Position numbers and translations under genes: made by a program | Notes under the pieces: model-generated | The model's database searches: none | The model's input: the letters and a program-made list of their open reading frames with translations, nothing else | What the model was told of the DNA's origin: nothing | Shown: positions 2,262 through 39,807 of the stretch, in pieces | Position numbering within the stretch: the first letter of the stretch is position 1 | Layout: each line of letters opens with the position of its first letter | Assembly: GCF_022201045.2 (NCBI RefSeq) | Contig: NC_068561.1 | Span: 22,140,501-22,204,500, forward strand | Direction: 5' to 3' | DNA length: 64,000 nt | From: Citrus sinensis | Taxonomy: Eukaryota > Streptophyta > Magnoliopsida > Sapindales > Rutaceae

Positions 2262-3074
2262 CATCTAATTTACACATAATGTTGAATTGCTGCTGTTGTA
2301 CTTCCTTACTGGCTAACCATACTTCTGTAGTTTCCCAAACTAGTGAAGCACTCTATTGCCCAGGTGCTTGCATTGTTTTTTCTTGCAAAGCTGATGATTC
2401 TTCTTGGCTTTACCACACATGAATAGCTTGTATGTACATTTTTGAACTTCAGTATGGAACTTTTATGCAGTGCTAAGATTCCCCCGCACAAACACCAGAA
2501 TATTTCCTTGGGATGCCGTTCATTCTGTTGGAACTTATGAGTTTCGTGTAAGCTTGTGAAGAAGAATGACTCAGGCCTTGTAAATTGATGTCAAATACCT
2601 TGTTTGGCAGTAGTTCAGTTCACTCCCTTTGCGACTTATATGAATTACTTCCTTTGGTGTTTGTGTTGTGAAATTTTGAATTGTTATTGTAGGATAATTA
2701 TAATATCATCGCAAATGATGCATATGAAACAGATTTATCTATATGTTGTGAACAATAGAAAAACATTTTCAGGCAACATTTTCATCCTTCACACAGCATA
2801 GTTCCAAATCAAGATGCTACCAAAAAAAAAAAGTTTTAAGGTCATTCTACCACATGTATGCGCATATACGTCAGGTATCAGTTGCACACATCATATACAT
2901 ACATTACATATTTAAGTATCTATAGCAGCATATACATAGTGCATATTAAAAAGACTACAGCTTAGGGCAGGACTTAAAATTACATTCAGTTAGTCCAAAT
3001 TTTGCCTGCCAATACTCATCTAACCTGATGTAACTTCGGCAAATGTATATGCATGCCTAGGAGTATCACTATTT
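2262..3074. other. Convergent spacer between the bZIP gene and the Argonaute pseudogene
   Basis: Presumed 3'UTR of the bZIP gene plus the 3' side of the Argonaute remnant. It is AT-rich with a short poly(A) run near 2821. No additional gene is visible. Confidence 0.6.
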
Positions 3075-6000
3075 TCAGCAGAAAAACATAGAACTTCTCA
3101 CATTTTCGTGTAACTTCGGCAATGCTGGTACATGGGCATGTCCAGAAGAAGTCTGACCTCCGGGGCTTGAAGATATCTCTGACAAGTCATCGAACTTCAT
3201 GAACTGTGAAAACTGAGCTGCTGCTAAGTGAGCATAGCGAACAGGAGCAACTGCAGAAGTAGTTGTAGAGGCTTCAACATTCACAAGTGAAATGTTAAAA
3301 AATTATAATTTCTGTCGAGTAGTTCACTAACTCCTAACTCATAACCAAGATCAGAAGGGAGAGGCCAATAAGCAGTGATGCCATTGTTTAACTTTGCTGT
3401 ATCATATGTTCATTGAACAATTGCTTTCCGAGAACTCAGGAATGACAAAAAAGGCAAAAAAGTTCCCAAAACTTAATAACAAACAGAAAAGATGATGTGC
3501 AGTGAGTTCTGATTCTAGAACCTCCGACCTCTCGCTTGGAAGCAAGTGCCAGAGAGCTCCACCCTTACCGCAGAAAGCATCAATTTTGTAACGTTTCTGT
3601 TTACATCTAAATTCAAGCATTTTAAAGGTAAGAGAGACGGGTCTTACCTACAGATACTGCAGTCGTGCTTCTCTGATATCTGCAAAATTCAAACGAGTAA
3701 GAACAACGGATTGCAGTCCTAAACACCTTTAGATAAGGAAAGTACGTCCAATATTAACTTACACATAGCAAAGGGAATGAACCAACTCCTGTAGATAGAT
3801 CATCAACTGAAAAGCCAATCTGATCTAACAGAACATGGTAGTGAGTCGGCCTTGTTGTTCCCTGACAAGTTACATCCAAAGGCAGTCAGATCTAGCATAC
3901 GGCGGCAATCCTATAGATACTTGGGCAAAGATGCTCATAAGGTTCAAAGAACTGTTATGGTAGTAATTGAACGTCTTCACTGTCTCAGGCAAACTGTTAT
4001 GATGGTAACTGAATGTCTTCGCTGTCTCAGGCAATCTTATATATCCCAGGAGCAGTCAATAAGGGGATCAGAAATCCACAAAGCAGTAGAAAAGGAATAT
4101 GAACACTGACTCCATCCCTTGTTTAAACCCAAAAAAAAAAAAGGCAATGCCAAAAAAATCCAGCCAGAATATAAGACAAGATGGCACTCTAAAAGATAAG
4201 AGCAGTATATTCGAATAAGCTCACAATCAAGTTATTAGGTTTGTTCAGATTGAAACTGGGAGGTATAAACAGCCGCAAATTATAACTTCATCCAAATTCC
4301 TGATGAAAGAGGGATGTTTCCGGTTCCAGTTACAAGTAAACTGTGATCAGCAAAAGCTCCGTATTAAAAAATTGTAATGCAGGCATCCCAATATAAACTT
4401 AGTATGATTTGACATGTCAGGGCTGACTACTCACCAGATACCACAATCTTTAATCCCAAGTGTCATGCTATTTCTTGAAACTGCTCTAGGTCAAAATCAC
4501 AAAAGAAAAAGGGAATATACAGGTTTGCCATGGCTGGTTCACATTAGGCCTACACTTCCGGCCTTCCAAATCTTCGAACCAATCCAAGATAAATGGTAGC
4601 ACCGTTCTTGAATATTAGAAAACAAAAAAGTACCAAATGCAATAATGGCATAAAATATAAAAAGAAAAAAAAATTATCTCCAAGTTAAAGTAGACCTGAA
4701 TATGATTATCTGGGATGGCTTTGTTTGTCCCGAACTCTTATAGAAGTCCACCAAAAGCTCTCTGAAAATGAAAGCATAACATATGCCTTCAATATACATG
4801 GTTATGAAGAAAAGGAAAGAAATTAAAAAGAGACAGTTATGATATCTTTACCTGACTATGCCAGCATCATCCTTGTTTGGAAGTGGCTTAAACAAGGAAT
4901 CTATCATCTCAAGCTTTGTTGACTGGCTGCGTACAGAAGCTCTGTAACGGGAAAGTATTGGCCAATTTCTAGAGCTAACAACCTAAGAATCAAATTAAAA
5001 ATAAGAAAAGAAACAAAAATATCCGATATTATGAATTCTTGCTTGATAAACTGCCAATGGGTGGTACTATCACATTCTGCAAGCTAAACAAGCTATTACA
5101 TCTTACCGCAGCTACGGATGGCACGTTAGAGTGTCCAGGGGAGCCATGTGACACATCCATCCCAAAAATTATCGTAGGAACCTTTGAGACCAAAGGGAGA
5201 TTTTTTGACTGCTCAATAGCCAACAAAGAATTCAAACCACCAAGCTGCATAAAAGCACCAACAATGAGAAGGATAACAAAAACAGCAACGCAAACCATGA
5301 CAAAATTAAAGAGGAAAAGAGATAAAGGTGCAAGCTAAAAACACATGACAATTAAGGGAAAACAACTGAACAAGTATAAGCGGATCAGTTAGCTCACTTT
5401 GGCATTTATCTTCAAAAGGACATTCATAAGATATTGTTCATTGACCTTAGTTGGTGCAAGGCATTGATTGAAAATTCCAAATTCTGAAAGAGTCTTTCTT
5501 TTCCATGAACCTTGGAGATTAAATTATCAGGGACATGAGTAATAGACATCTCTGCATGGATTAGATAAAAATGAGTTAATAATAAAATGCCTAACCGTAT
5601 AGGTCAGAGTCCTTTCTGTCGGGTAGGAGACAGAGAAGGAAGCAAGGACGTTTTTCAAACTTTTGCTTCATTTGTTCAAACATCCTGTCCACTCGAACAG
5701 GAGCTGGTGCCCGTCGAAACTGAGGATTCTCTTCAAAAACATTCAGTGGGGGACTTGTGGACTACAAAACGAAAATTGCTTATTCCCCGTAATAAGATTT
5801 TACGTAATGCAGCACACATGTATGCATGGAACTTACAATTCTCTTCATTTCTCCAAATCTAATCAAATCTCTGCACAGGCTACGTATATCACAACCACCA
5901 GAAAAATTTGCCACTGCCCAGTGATCAATTTTCGCTGCTGGAACAAATATCTATGAAGAAGATAAATAAAAAAATTGCAACAACATTAAGAGTTATCCAT

Positions 6001-8809
6001 GTAAGCACGGCAGAAACTAGAAGCACCACCTTGTTGTGGAAGCTCCACCGCCCATTTTTGGGGAAGATAACCTCCCTGTTTCCTGCCATCAACTACTTTT
6101 CAAGAAATAGAACAGCTTCAGTAATGCACAGCCAGAATAAGGCTAATAAAGATTTTCAGAGAGTGGCCAACAAAACATAAAAGTAACCGAGATAGATACT
6201 TTACCCTTGGGGCAGATAAAATGCGGCCTTCAACTTGAGCAAAACGGCTGTTGATTGAAATGCCACAAGAACGCAACATTGGCTCAGAGTCATTTTTGTT
6301 GCTTCTCATTACCTGCGCATAATGCTCCATTGAATCCTAAATAAGCAACCGTTTGAGGAGGGGACAGAAATGCTAACGTAAACAAATGGGAAAAGAAACC
6401 TACGTCAGTTATGATCTTCATCTTCTCCTGTGGCTTCTGTTGTGATTTTTCCACTAGTGCAGACCTTTGGAAAACAGTCAATGCTTTTGTATAGCGTTGT
6501 AAGGAAAGCAGGGAACAGAGCTACAGTGGAGGAAGAGAAGAAAAGATGCAAGCTTATTGCTATATTAACCAACAAGAAAGTTCTTGGACAATCTAAGCTG
6601 CAAAATCAATTTTTTTTCAATAAGAATAGATCAGGTCACCTCAATGGGAATGTAGGTAGGTTTTCTTGGCTTGCCAACATCAATACATGGAAAGTCTCCG
6701 GAAAAGCATAAATTGATGCGGCGATGGTTAACAAAATAATCGAAAACGGTTACATCAACACATTTCACATCATCATTTCTATCTTTAACTCCTGATTTCC
6801 ACGAGAACCTACAAAAAGAGGAGCAAAAAGCAAATCTTGCAGCATAATGCTTTAAGTAAAATGCCATATTAACAAATTATAGGCATAGCAAATAAGATTG
6901 GAAATCAATCAGAGCAGTGATGACTTACATCTGCCGTTTGCATGTGCTATCACTCAATCCAGTGATTCTATATTCTCGATTAAAGGGATGGACTCTTATC
7001 CTCAAAATTTTGAGTGTACGTTTAGCCTGTTAATGAAAATATGCGGCATGTTTTAAAAAACGCCTTGCCCGCACAAAAATAAAGCTTGGGCAAAAAATCT
7101 GTACCTTTGCCCAGTCAAGCTGATAACAATCACGCACATTTTGGTTGGCAATGAGAAAATCAATGATTGGTCCAGGCTTTATAATTGTTGTAGTCTATTC
7201 ATCTGTCATTAACACAAAGGATAAGCAAATATAAACAGACCAAATCCTGAAAATTACAAAGGAAAGAACAATTTGCTAAAACCTTGAAAAGCGTTGAGGG
7301 AAAATGTTAACTTACCAATATTCAGAGACAGTCCTCCTTGTGTGGCTTGAAAACTTGAGTGGAAGCCCCAGCAACCAAGAACACCACCTCCAAGGTCAAA
7401 GAAACTCCTAGGTTCATTCTGAAAGAACGATTGACGTACAAGGAAGCAGCCCCTGTAGGAAGTGGCTAAGAATATTGAGATACTACGATGATCAATCATG
7501 CTAAAAAGGGAAGGAATTACATCAAGACTCACTGTTTGGCAGCATGCTGCCTTAAAATGATGTCTAATACTCTAAAGGCCTCTCGAGAATTCTGTGATTC
7601 CTGACCATGTAGAGCAGCAGCAATAGCCTGCAAAGGAATTTTGGCGGCAACGCTGATCTCTACTTTAAATGTTTTAGATTGGGATACCCGCCTTCTCTTT
7701 CTATCTCTCTCATTATTGCTACCATGGCCATCAGGGCTGTCATTACTAGTAGTTCTGGACAAAATAATCTCACCAAGTTAATATACGATGACATACTGTG
7801 AGATATCTAGTGTAAATCTTGACAAGAAGTAAATTCATGCTAGTTACCTATATGATGAGGGATTATCAAGCAAAACAAGGAACTCCATTTTTTTGTGGGG
7901 GAGGGCACTGATTGTAAATAAGCTCTTTTCTCCCGTGGGGCCTAGTTTACTTGTTCTCTTTGATTCCTCTGGACCAATGAAGACAGACGAGCCCATTGGC
8001 TTTATTAGATACAGAATCAATGTAGATCCAGAATGACTCCTGGAATGTAGATAGACTAAAAGAGGGAATAAAGGGATAGGAATAGGAATTATAGTACCAT
8101 TAGAAGAAGGGGCCCCTGTGGGAACATCTCTACTGACGAACCATTTCAATAGTACGAACACCTTAAAATGGGAACCTGCAAAGCCGTTCCATTACTCATT
8201 GATCGTTAACCAGGCTGACTAACTGCCGGATTTTACATTACAAGCCATCAGAATCTGAATTGTGTTCAGCATCAGATTTTGATTGGAAGTCAGAGAATTG
8301 GATTGGACAAAAAGGAGGAAATGAGGTCACCATGGAAGTGAGCTCATTTCCGGAACCTGAAAGTATAGCTTCCGTGTAAGGGGGACGGGGGGATGTGCCC
8401 CCCGGGGAGCATAGCATCTCAGCAAGATCAGCACTATAAGTCTCACAAACTTTATCAATTATCTTTCTTCGGATTCCCTTTGTTTCAATGGGACAGCCAT
8501 CGTCATAGAACAAGGCAACCTTTTTCAGTGAAGAAGAAAGTGTTCAGCATCCCGAATCTAAAGGGAGCCATTGAAACAAGGACAGAGGAAACTTACACTA
8601 TAATGAAAAATGTGGCCACTAGCACCGGTGATGCTGACTTTGAAATGATTAGAGAGAAGAGATGTTATTTCTCCTTTTGAACCAGAAGGCTTTCATATTT
8701 TTTTAGTCACCTCAGGACCAGTTACCGATTTAATCTGTGAAGATTCTACATTTGGTGGGATTTCAGAGGGAGATGGACCGTGAGCTTCTGAATCTTTAGG
8801 AAATTTCAT
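3075..8809 (-). pseudogene. Decayed Argonaute of the AGO4/AGO6 clade
   Basis: Many exon remnants in the right order match an AGO4/6-clade Argonaute, the class that guides RNA-directed DNA methylation in the nucleus. They run from an N-terminal piece (ATG 8809) through the N domain (about 8400-8660), a linker with LRQHAAKQ and GGGVLGCWGFHSSF (7300-7760), PAZ (5850-7190), MID (5400-5780) and PIWI pieces (VPTIIFGMDVSHGSPG near 5160; IIIFR near 4700; GTTRPTHYHVL at 3763-3861), to the usual C-terminus SMFFC at 3075. Splice sites are mostly preserved. Lesions: in-frame TGA at 8695-8693 (codon 39), a roughly 485-bp insertion at 7934-8418, in-frame TAG at 7197-7195, a 4-bp TAGA duplication at 3792-3799 that shifts frame, and no recognisable sequence for about 90 PIWI residues including the second catalytic Asp. 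A functional product is very unlikely, though the locus may still be transcribed. Confidence 0.9.
7934..8418 (-). other. Insertion in the Argonaute remnant, containing a mitochondrial ccmFC fragment (NUMT)
   Basis: The Argonaute reading breaks after ...ETYSADLA (near 8419) and resumes at GEKSLFTISALP (near 7933), where family members are continuous apart from a few residues. Within the gap, about 8038-8158 on the minus strand, the translation includes LLKWFVSRDVPTGAP and NGTIIPIPIPLFPLL, which I recognise as the N-terminal part of plant mitochondrial CcmFC, a cytochrome c maturation protein. The rest (8160-8418 and 7934-8037) is unassigned; it may be further organelle DNA or filler from end joining. 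The flanks do not look like splice sites, so a simple intron is unlikely. Confidence 0.75.
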
Positions 8810-11800
8810 TATAATACCTAACACGAAAACGATGAATTATATTGGGACATGAAACATAAATAATGTCATTGTATAAATTGCCACTGTACAAATTGAGGTC
8901 AAAATACAATTAAGCTAAGAAAGCAACAATCTTAAGACATGACTTACACCAGAAATCAAATTAAAAGTTGTAAGGTGGGTAAGGCATTATATTGGTCAAA
9001 GAAAAATAAATCCAGTATTGTAAACCATTTCCAGAATCAAGCTTCATATTGCCAATTGAAAAAGACAACCGCAAGGCATGTAGCTGGCTTCAGTATGAAA
9101 AATGTCCAACACATGAAGCATCTGCAGTAAATTTGATATACATGTACATGGGAGAGTAAAATGGTGTAACAGGTACCATTTAGAGACACAGTGTTTACAA
9201 TCCGAGCTCATTATACAGCTGGGCAATGCCTGATAGAAAGTTCTGTAAACTATCGTGGAATTGAACACGCACTACAATAACAAAATCAAATCTAACCGCT
9301 TGATGAGAGGAAGGACATTATAGAAAGTGTCATTTCGAGGCTCTTTCCGCACCGGAACACTTAAAAATGACCAATTACCGTAGCAATTGAAATAGTAGGA
9401 TTGTCAAAATGACACAGTTTTTATCCAAAATGGTTATATCAATACCACAATAGATAACAAAAACAACTCTAGTCAATGGGATGTAACACTGGAACAGAGC
9501 ATGAAACTGTTGCAGAAATCGACATAGCAGCTACATTTAACTTAAGAAACATAACTCAAGAAACAGATCACACATCAAAAGAGGCCTTAATTTCTTGAAT
9601 TATTCTTAGGATGTATAAAACAATTGGGTTGAAAGCTAATTGAATAACTGAGAAGTAGAACAAGGTTAGTTATGATGCACAGAATGCGTGTTCTTTGTGA
9701 CAAATAAACAATTAACACACCAGAGATGCTTCCCTTTTGTACTTTCTTCAAGATTTTGTACGTTCAGATAAATCAAAACTGAAACACTAGCGTTCAAGTT
9801 TGAAATAAACAAAACAAATGGACGAAAACGTCCCTCGTTTCACAATAAATATAAGGGTATTCGAGTAGCTTAAAAGTTCTGCCTCTGTGAAGAAATGACA
9901 GAGATGCTGCAGCACTTTCACTTTCACTTTATTAAAAAAAAAAAATGAAGAAAAAGAGGCGCTATGCTGGTCATAAGACATGCAAAGTACACCAAAAATG
10001 AAAAGCAATACATTATGCATGGGAACAAAAAAAAACGTACAGAAATGAAGAACAGAAACGCAGAACAGTGAAGAAGCAGCTAAATTATTTTATGCTGAGA
10101 TGAGTAAGCAGAAGGACCAATATGTAAAATGGACAAAGCGAATTGAACAAACCTAGCTAAAAGATGAAGAAAGGAAACCTAATACTTTGCAGATGCTCTG
10201 AGTGATGAGGCTTTGGCCATTTTCATTGAATATAAAGAGAAAGAGACACACAGAGCGTCACAGTCAGAATGTAACAATCATTTTTTGGAAATACAAAAAG
10301 CTGATAATTGAAGTATGCTGGTGTAGGCTACTATAGGTGGCGTTTTGTGGTAGAAAAAACGAAAAAGCTTATGGTATTGTTTCAAAATATTAAACCATAA
10401 GTAAATTAACATATCAAGCATAGAAAATAATCAAATAGACTGTGGATCTTCTAATCTACTCCTTGAATCTTGATAGCTTTACTCATGTAAATATATAGGC
10501 AAAATTCTTAATGCTATTCTTGGACCTATTATTTAATGGACTTATCACTTCCTTCCATTAAGAAAGTGAATAAATTCCTTTTTATCTTAATCTTTTAAAT
10601 TTGTGAACACTAATTATATCATTATGGAATCCTTCAGAAACATGTGAGTATTTATAATTAGCTTAGCTATGAATTAAAACTTAATACATATATGCGAGCT
10701 CTAGTTAAATCTTGAAACATGTAGGTGAGCTACATCTGAAAAAGAGGGTTCCAACATTTAGTGCTTCTCTGGGTTCTTATTCTTAATGCTAGTTTCACGG
10801 AATGGTTAAATTCCTACAACAAAGGTGGCATTAACTTGGGTCCTTTTAAGGGTTGGACTCTGTAAATGTGTAGAGATGGGTAACCTTCCCACCTATATTA
10901 TATGAATTGCGAGGTTGGTTTTTATTAATATAGCTTATTATATAGGAGTGAAGCTAGACATTCTAACACTTAAATCTTAATTTGAGTCTCACCTAATCTG
11001 TCATTCAACTATTGAATAGTGAATAATAATTTTATAAGTTATGAAATTCATAATCTCATATAAAAGTGTCATAAAACATAGGACTCAAATTGAGACTCAA
11101 ATGTTAGAATAATAAAAAAAAATGTGTATAAATTAAAATTTTATTTTCAAAATATATGGATGGGTTTGTTGAATAATTGAGTGTAGAGAAGAAAAATACA
11201 GATTTAAATAATTCTATCTTTGAGAAAATTTTTGTGGGATCAACACTGCTGCAGTGGCATGTAATATGGTCTCATTATAGGATCTATTAATTTTTAATAT
11301 TAAATTTAAAAATAATAGTATTTGACCCCCTCAACTTATTTCTTTAACCCACATTATTTTTATTTTAACTTGAAATATCTAAAATATTCTTCTCTCTCAA
11401 TCTCCTTCACCCTCCATTTTTATCCTTGCCAAACATTCATTACAAGTTCACAACAATAGATATTTTAGAATAAAGTTTAGTTCACTTTTGTTTATTTTAT
11501 ATTTTATTGCTTGCTAGGACCACACCAACACCAACAATTGGCAATCCTCCTCCAAGGTCTCTAATATTTTATTTCTTTTTTAAGGATTTGATTAAATTAG
11601 GTTGAACATATTTATTTAATTGGGTTGAATTGATTTTATTTAAACTCATTCAATAATTGGTTGGGTTGCATTTTCAAAAATCTTGTTCAACCCAACCCAT
11701 CTCCGGCCCGAACCGACAGGGTTATGAAGGGAATAGTTTTAAAAGGTTTGGACATCAGTTGATGTTTTCCAAAATAGTGTGGTGGTAATTTGAAATTATC

Positions 11801-34280: not shown

Positions 34281-36341
<2,061 letters not shown>

Positions 36342-38483: not shown

Positions 38484-39807
<1,324 letters not shown>

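Follow-up and report, generated by a model that had tools for sequence, protein, structure and literature searches.

The closest described counterpart of the gene discussed here is an Argonaute of sweet orange (Citrus sinensis) known as CsAGO6-like (orange1.1g048669m / Cs6g16080). As described in PMC6739940, it occupies 17010270-17016001 (5,732 bp) on the minus strand of chromosome 6, and an updated gene structure gives it an open reading frame (ORF) of 2,814 nt and 937 amino acids (aa). It owes its name to its nearness to the AGO6 group. Its catalytic motif is D-H/T, with a gap at the second Asp, slicing activity is likely lacking, and expression is very low in every tissue (PMC6739940). A second strand of the literature concerns DNA repair, where organelle DNA has been reported as filler at breaks, joined there by end joining (PMC7037861; PMC6215612). 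Our subject is a 64,000-nucleotide stretch of the Citrus sinensis genome (C6:22140501-22204500; hereafter the window, to which positions without a contig name refer). On its minus strand, from 8809 to 3075, lies what by its sequence is an intron-bearing, non-processed Argonaute pseudogene of the AGO4 side. We consider it very probable that this locus is an old duplicate that lived for a long time under purifying selection and then died, that its exon 2 carries a patch made by end joining, and that it is the gene annotated as CsAGO6-like.

The comparison rests on relatives in the same genome. A search of all 299.7 Mb (11 contigs, named C2, C4, C5, C6, C10 and so on) with Arabidopsis AGO4 as query matched one exon of the window locus after another, well beyond chance (the lowest E, 1.5e-22, belongs to C6:22148017-22148280), and found further loci on the AGO4/6 side: L023, L024, L025 and L026. 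L023 (C2:4.67 Mb) is an intact AGO4 of 22 exons and 920 aa. Its protein (103,012 Da, pI 8.98) can be set beside the published sweet orange AGO4 (920 aa, 102,998 Da, pI 8.98), and the genome's AGO6, L025 (C2:19.93 Mb; 895 aa, 100,530 Da, pI 9.39), beside the published AGO6 (895 aa, 100,500 Da, pI 9.41). L024 (C5:17.65 Mb) fits less well: depending on the start codon it has 907 or 924 aa, whereas CsAGO4b has 898; the published values are those tabulated in PMC6739940. L024 and L025 align with no stop and no frameshift, L023, L024 and L025 all translate free of stops when their exons are joined, and a control with stricter penalties gives zero stops and zero frameshifts in all three. L026 (C5:18416500-18426400, at 18.42 Mb) is a second broken AGO4-side copy, L024-like, with exons 13-20 only and two frameshifts. 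The PDB was tried as a source of an AGO4-clade reference and set aside, the best of its 18 matches being plant Argonaute 10.

With L023 as reference, a spliced aligner written for this analysis recovers 19 of the 22 exons in the window locus, in blocks 76-83% identical to L023 and in the same exon order as AGO4. The aligner accepts GT or GC donors and AG acceptors only. It placed 19 introns, two of which, across the exon 2 patch and across a loss in the PIWI domain, are detours round lesions that we do not claim as real. The other 17 are GT-AG without exception, a result that amounts to agreement and not to an independent test, given that restriction. This retention of ancestral intron sites is what marks a pseudogene as non-processed. 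Pfam matched five of the nine pieces submitted (ArgoN, ArgoL1, PAZ in two pieces, one of them below cut-off, ArgoL2 and Piwi); the four pieces without a match include one from exon 12, expected in MID, and the nine come from exons other than 10, 11 and 13. The pseudogene begins at an ATG that was placed by eye at 8809, ahead of the first aligned base at 8776, and ends at a TGA at 3077-3075 directly after ...SMFFC, a span of 5,735 bp with exactly the boundaries of the original prediction.

Within that span the window copy carries five lesions: two stops, one frameshifting duplication, one insertion and one deletion. The first stop, TGA at 8695-8693, stands in the aligned frame of exon 1 (8809-8597), in the variable N-terminal region. 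The second, TAG at 7197-7195 in exon 5, falls on the Ser of DVSTT, which is kept in all three intact paralogues. In exon 20 a 4-nt tandem duplication (3799-3792) shifts the frame, the alignment calling the frameshift at 3798. The open reading frame expected of a functional AGO4-clade gene is thus missing. The original prediction had described a broken Argonaute with well-kept exons, both stops, the frameshifting duplication, an N-domain insertion and at least four lesions in all, and had proposed alignment with full AGO4/6/16 genes of the same genome as a check. Alignment with the genes of the AGO4/6 side places the lesions in the window copy and none in L023, L024 or L025. The prediction of multiple independent damage holds, the exons do align with L023, both stops lie in the aligned frame, and the count has changed, from at least four to five.

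The deletion is in PIWI. Exon 16 (4761-4696; RELLVDFYKSSGQTKPSQIIIF) is the last full PIWI exon before it, and from its end at 4696 to the start of exon 20 at 3861 the sequence aligns only poorly to L023. Exon 17 beyond its first 14 nt and all of exons 18-19 are gone, some 80 residues. What is left of exon 17 is a 14-nt stub behind an AG acceptor (4117-4104; GGATGGAGTCAGTG), which occurs once in 2500-9500, differs from L023 at one of its 14 nt and carries the GAT codon of the second catalytic Asp. Here the original prediction went too far, since it had seen no trace of this segment. The catalytic columns of the window copy read D, gap, H, T, with the second-Asp column masked for this copy; the first Asp and the His are present (the His in the last exon, 3250-3078, VAPVRYAHLAAAQ...SMFFC, by spliced alignment and motif columns), and the second Asp survives as a codon in the stub only. 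Across 3880-4700 a genome search that passes over simple repeats and highly frequent words returned only the self-match, which speaks for loss rather than insertion; an insertion like that in the N domain was rejected on this result. Could the gene be intact and all this damage an artefact of assembly or sequencing? There is but a single assembly to go on, and it is the same assembly in which three paralogues are clean. The five lesions are of different kinds, and the gap at the second Asp was reported independently, in PMC6739940, for the probable counterpart CsAGO6-like. We regard an artefact as highly improbable.

The N-domain insertion is a 485-nt patchwork (8417-7933), defined by genome search and spliced alignment. 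It lies between the 5' part of exon 2 (8519-8424; VALFYDDG...ETYSADL) and the 3' part (7932-7848; GEKSLFTISALP...), replaces about six to eight codons in the alignment to L023, and is absent from the paralogues. Six nucleotides at 8423-8418, between the 5' part and the patch, are assigned to neither, and the first G of the GGA that opens the 3' part (7933) is common to the patch. Four donors cover the patch end to end. Piece 1 (8417-8243) is nuclear, 91% identical to C2:22307786-22307959, and has a second copy 8 kb away at C2:22315571 (89%, or 92% over 136 nt in another search). Piece 2 (8242-8155, 88 nt) and piece 3 (8156-8038, 119 nt) are mitochondrial and 100% identical to their donors, C10:166272-166359 on the minus strand and C10:95151-95269 on the plus strand, respectively. 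Piece 4 (8037-7933) is nuclear again; it differs at 5 of 105 positions from the copy at C4:11070408-11070515 (94% over 108 nt), and its second copy, at C4:11099328 (92%), sits inside an 8.4-kb duplication of 95.4%. The genome search with the patch gave ten matches: the four donors, the locus itself, the two second copies, C2:15049510 and one short match each on C7 and C3. The idea that the nuclear pieces are repeats was dropped; their core patterns, allowing up to two mismatches, occur at just two other places each.

We take C10 (632.5 kb) to be mitochondrial because it holds the only full-length COX1 match among six and because the ORF around the donor of piece 3 has a CcmF_C match, albeit a weak one (E 0.0036, below the curated cut-off). 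That ORF is presumably ccmFC, which makes piece 3 a putative ccmFC fragment. Another nuclear copy of the same stretch, 97% identical, lies at C2:15049510-15049628. Separately, broken COX1 pieces at C6:12306697-12307330, on a nuclear chromosome, are a nuclear mitochondrial insertion (NUMT).

The donors overlap by 0, 2 and 0 nt at the three internal junctions of the patch, so these junctions are blunt or of short microhomology, as in filler insertions, and the two mitochondrial fragments come from separate sites, as in complex NUMTs. Such anatomy resembles that of end-joining repair and of organelle filler DNA. We envisage a double-strand break in exon 2 at which end joining would have taken up four fragments, two of them mitochondrial and two nuclear, while about six to eight codons were lost. 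A single event would be the simplest account, since a later mitochondrial insertion would need to land exactly on the join between the C2 and C4 pieces.

The affiliation of the duplicate comes from trees that include Arabidopsis sequences. In a protein tree L025 pairs with AtAGO6 at 100/100 and the window copy falls outside that pair, on the AGO4 side; the AGO4/AGO6-type gene of the original prediction narrows in this way to the AGO4 side, away from AGO6. With a distant outgroup from the same genome, the AGO6 pair alone is resolved. L023 and AtAGO4 pair at 94/93, just under the usual support mark, again with the window copy outside, and this pairing hints at a duplication older than the citrus-Arabidopsis split. 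Synonymous divergence (NG86 Ks) is saturated at 1.9 or more and yields no dates in years.

Selection was followed with codon models on 775 codons shared by the window copy, L023, L024 and L025. The best topology joins the window copy to L023 (3.5 log units above the next) and gives omega 0.158 on the window branch vs 0.084 elsewhere (2dlnL 9.2, p 0.0024), with omega = 1 on the window branch rejected (2dlnL 37). Under the other two topologies the window branch has omega 0.169 and 0.173 vs 0.083-0.084, and with omega free on each branch the values are 0.169 for the window copy, 0.071 for L023, 0.126 for L024 and 0.063 for L025. The codon models thus describe long purifying constraint with modest relaxation. 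The neutral share of the window branch is 4-9%, by choice of background, and together these values lend moderate support to a death in the later part of the duplicate's life. In our reconstruction purifying selection would have acted on the duplicate through most of its existence, until it died.

The original prediction also offered the locus a role after death, as a transcribed pseudogene that could be a source of small RNAs directed at its functional paralogue. The level of exon identity to L023 is in favour of this for the AGO4/6 paralogues, as are imperfect sense matches: 21-mers with a single mismatch can be placed 20 times on L023, 5 times on L024 and twice on L025. However, in a comparison that covered L023, L024, L025 and L026 among the genome's Argonautes, no exact stretch of at least 19 nt is common to the locus and these four on either strand; the longest is 17 nt. 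Silencing of these four in trans is therefore unlikely, the prediction finds no support, and we give the idea very little credence.

Is the pseudogene the published CsAGO6-like? By its description in PMC6739940, CsAGO6-like matches the window locus in chromosome (6), strand (minus), length (5,732 vs 5,735 bp), catalytic motif (D-H/T) and membership of the AGO4/6/8/9 clade. The fourth motif column agrees as well: it is T in the window copy and P, P and S in L023, L024 and L025, and the published residues for CsAGO4a, CsAGO4b and CsAGO6 are P, P and S (PMC6739940). A neighbour can also be compared, CsAGO5d lying 1.37 Mb from CsAGO6-like on the same strand in the published table (PMC6739940) and a Piwi match, its putative counterpart, lying about 1.25 Mb from the window locus, again on the same strand. 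The two are very likely the same locus, and the CsAGO6-like gene model, to judge from its published description, probably describes this pseudogene. We would thus have a dead locus annotated in sweet orange as CsAGO6-like / Cs6g16080. A literature search for Citrus "AGO6-like", orange1.1g048669m and Cs6g16080 found only PMC6739940, and the word pseudogene was not found in the main text of the citrus papers searched, that one included. On the same genome, three closely spaced long-ORF Argonaute genes at C2:27078386-27117526 are putatively of AGO2 type; in the 2019 sweet orange table two AGO2 genes likewise sit close together on chromosome 2 (PMC6739940).

Several observations weigh against an old duplicate now dead, and they deserve to be set out together. 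To begin with, the sweet orange paper gives CsAGO6-like as a gene of 937 aa, with an updated structure, and places it nearer AGO6 (PMC6739940), whereas the window locus has stops and a frameshift and our trees put it outside the AGO6 group. The locus might still be a gene, in which altered splicing evades the lesions to yield a slicer-dead, chimeric CsAGO6-like with a peptide from the patch, partly ccmFC, and which, if it acts at all, would be a non-cleaving binder or decoy. There is some arithmetic behind this. Together the remaining AGO exons make up 2,932 nt when the patch is counted and about 2,450 when it is not, so that, if the published allele shares this structure, a 2,814-nt ORF must include non-AGO sequence. 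Moreover, a single open frame (8191-7847) leads from the ccmFC piece into exon 2 of the AGO gene, and the aligner, when forbidden stops and frameshifts, finds an open path of 826 residues. That path is not ancestral, however. Its start lies past the TGA, its splice sites are altered (at the patch it takes a GC donor), and across the PIWI gap, where the ancestral exons are gone, it resorts to pseudo-exons that match poorly; the very low expression across tissues (PMC6739940) does not help the case. The open path supports no working Argonaute and leaves a small probability for a chimeric protein. We consider a surviving gene unlikely; that the patch was exonised, specifically, so that the N domain of a transcribed, slicer-dead, non-cleaving member of the AGO4 pathway contains a ccmFC peptide and is the published 937-aa protein, seems to us quite improbable.

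The remaining points bear on timing. Omega is raised in intact L024 too (0.126), so that the excess of the window copy over an intact paralogue can be small; the fairly recent death of the original prediction stands in the sense of late within the life of the duplicate, with that reservation. The ages within the patch do not match either. Its mitochondrial bases show 0/205 differences from their donor, but in 14/259 ungapped columns of the nuclear pieces (9/154 and 5/105) the insert matches neither copy of the donor, a contrast (Fisher p 0.0004) that is awkward for a single event. If nuclear sites change at 2-7e-9 per year, as we assume, 0/205 sets a limit of about 2-7 million years on the age of the insertion, against about 4-14 from the nuclear pieces. 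The nuclear differences are unpolarised, and at two places the distant C7 copy shares, by eye, the base of the insert, which places part of the change with the donors. The mismatch would also be explained by a nuclear donor that was lost or unsampled. With these points weighed, a duplicate long constrained, then dead and patched, is still the reading we hold to be very probable.

A few other features of the window are worth recording. In the last intron, 3505-3570 has by eye the look of a tRNA-derived element; it has no second genome copy, no tRNA was called in it, and a short interspersed element (SINE) was rejected, 3480-3645 matching only itself in the genome. Across the window ARAGORN found no genes and Rfam gave no match at gathering score. 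Further along, 35953-36252 and 39419-39718, 3,466 nt apart, are 99% identical over 300 nt. Their 113-aa ORFs, at 36000 and 39466, encode the same protein, presumably calmodulin, and could reflect recent tandem duplication or gene conversion.

As a pseudogene the locus is ordinary and known in kind. If CsAGO6-like is a dead gene, as our results suggest, the gene counts of the citrus AGO4 pathway need rechecking, and the value of the case lies in that annotation correction and in a worked history of decay. It also offers, at base resolution, a probable instance of a break in a plant exon mended with mitochondrial and nuclear scraps. Like the complex NUMTs and filler DNA described in PMC6215612 and PMC7037861, the patch has several organelle fragments, blunt or short-microhomology joins and the position of a filler at a break; unlike complex NUMTs, it includes low-copy nuclear DNA as well, one fragment from each of two other chromosomes, and it lies inside an exon of a dead gene. 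The precedent in the same clade is Arabidopsis AGO8, likewise of the AGO4 clade and, according to PMC6627097, widely considered a pseudogene owing to a splicing-linked frameshift. AGO8 nonetheless has a mutant phenotype (excess megaspore mother cells) and is expressed in pollen mother cells (PMC6627097), whereas the window copy is known here from its sequence and has suffered damage of more kinds.

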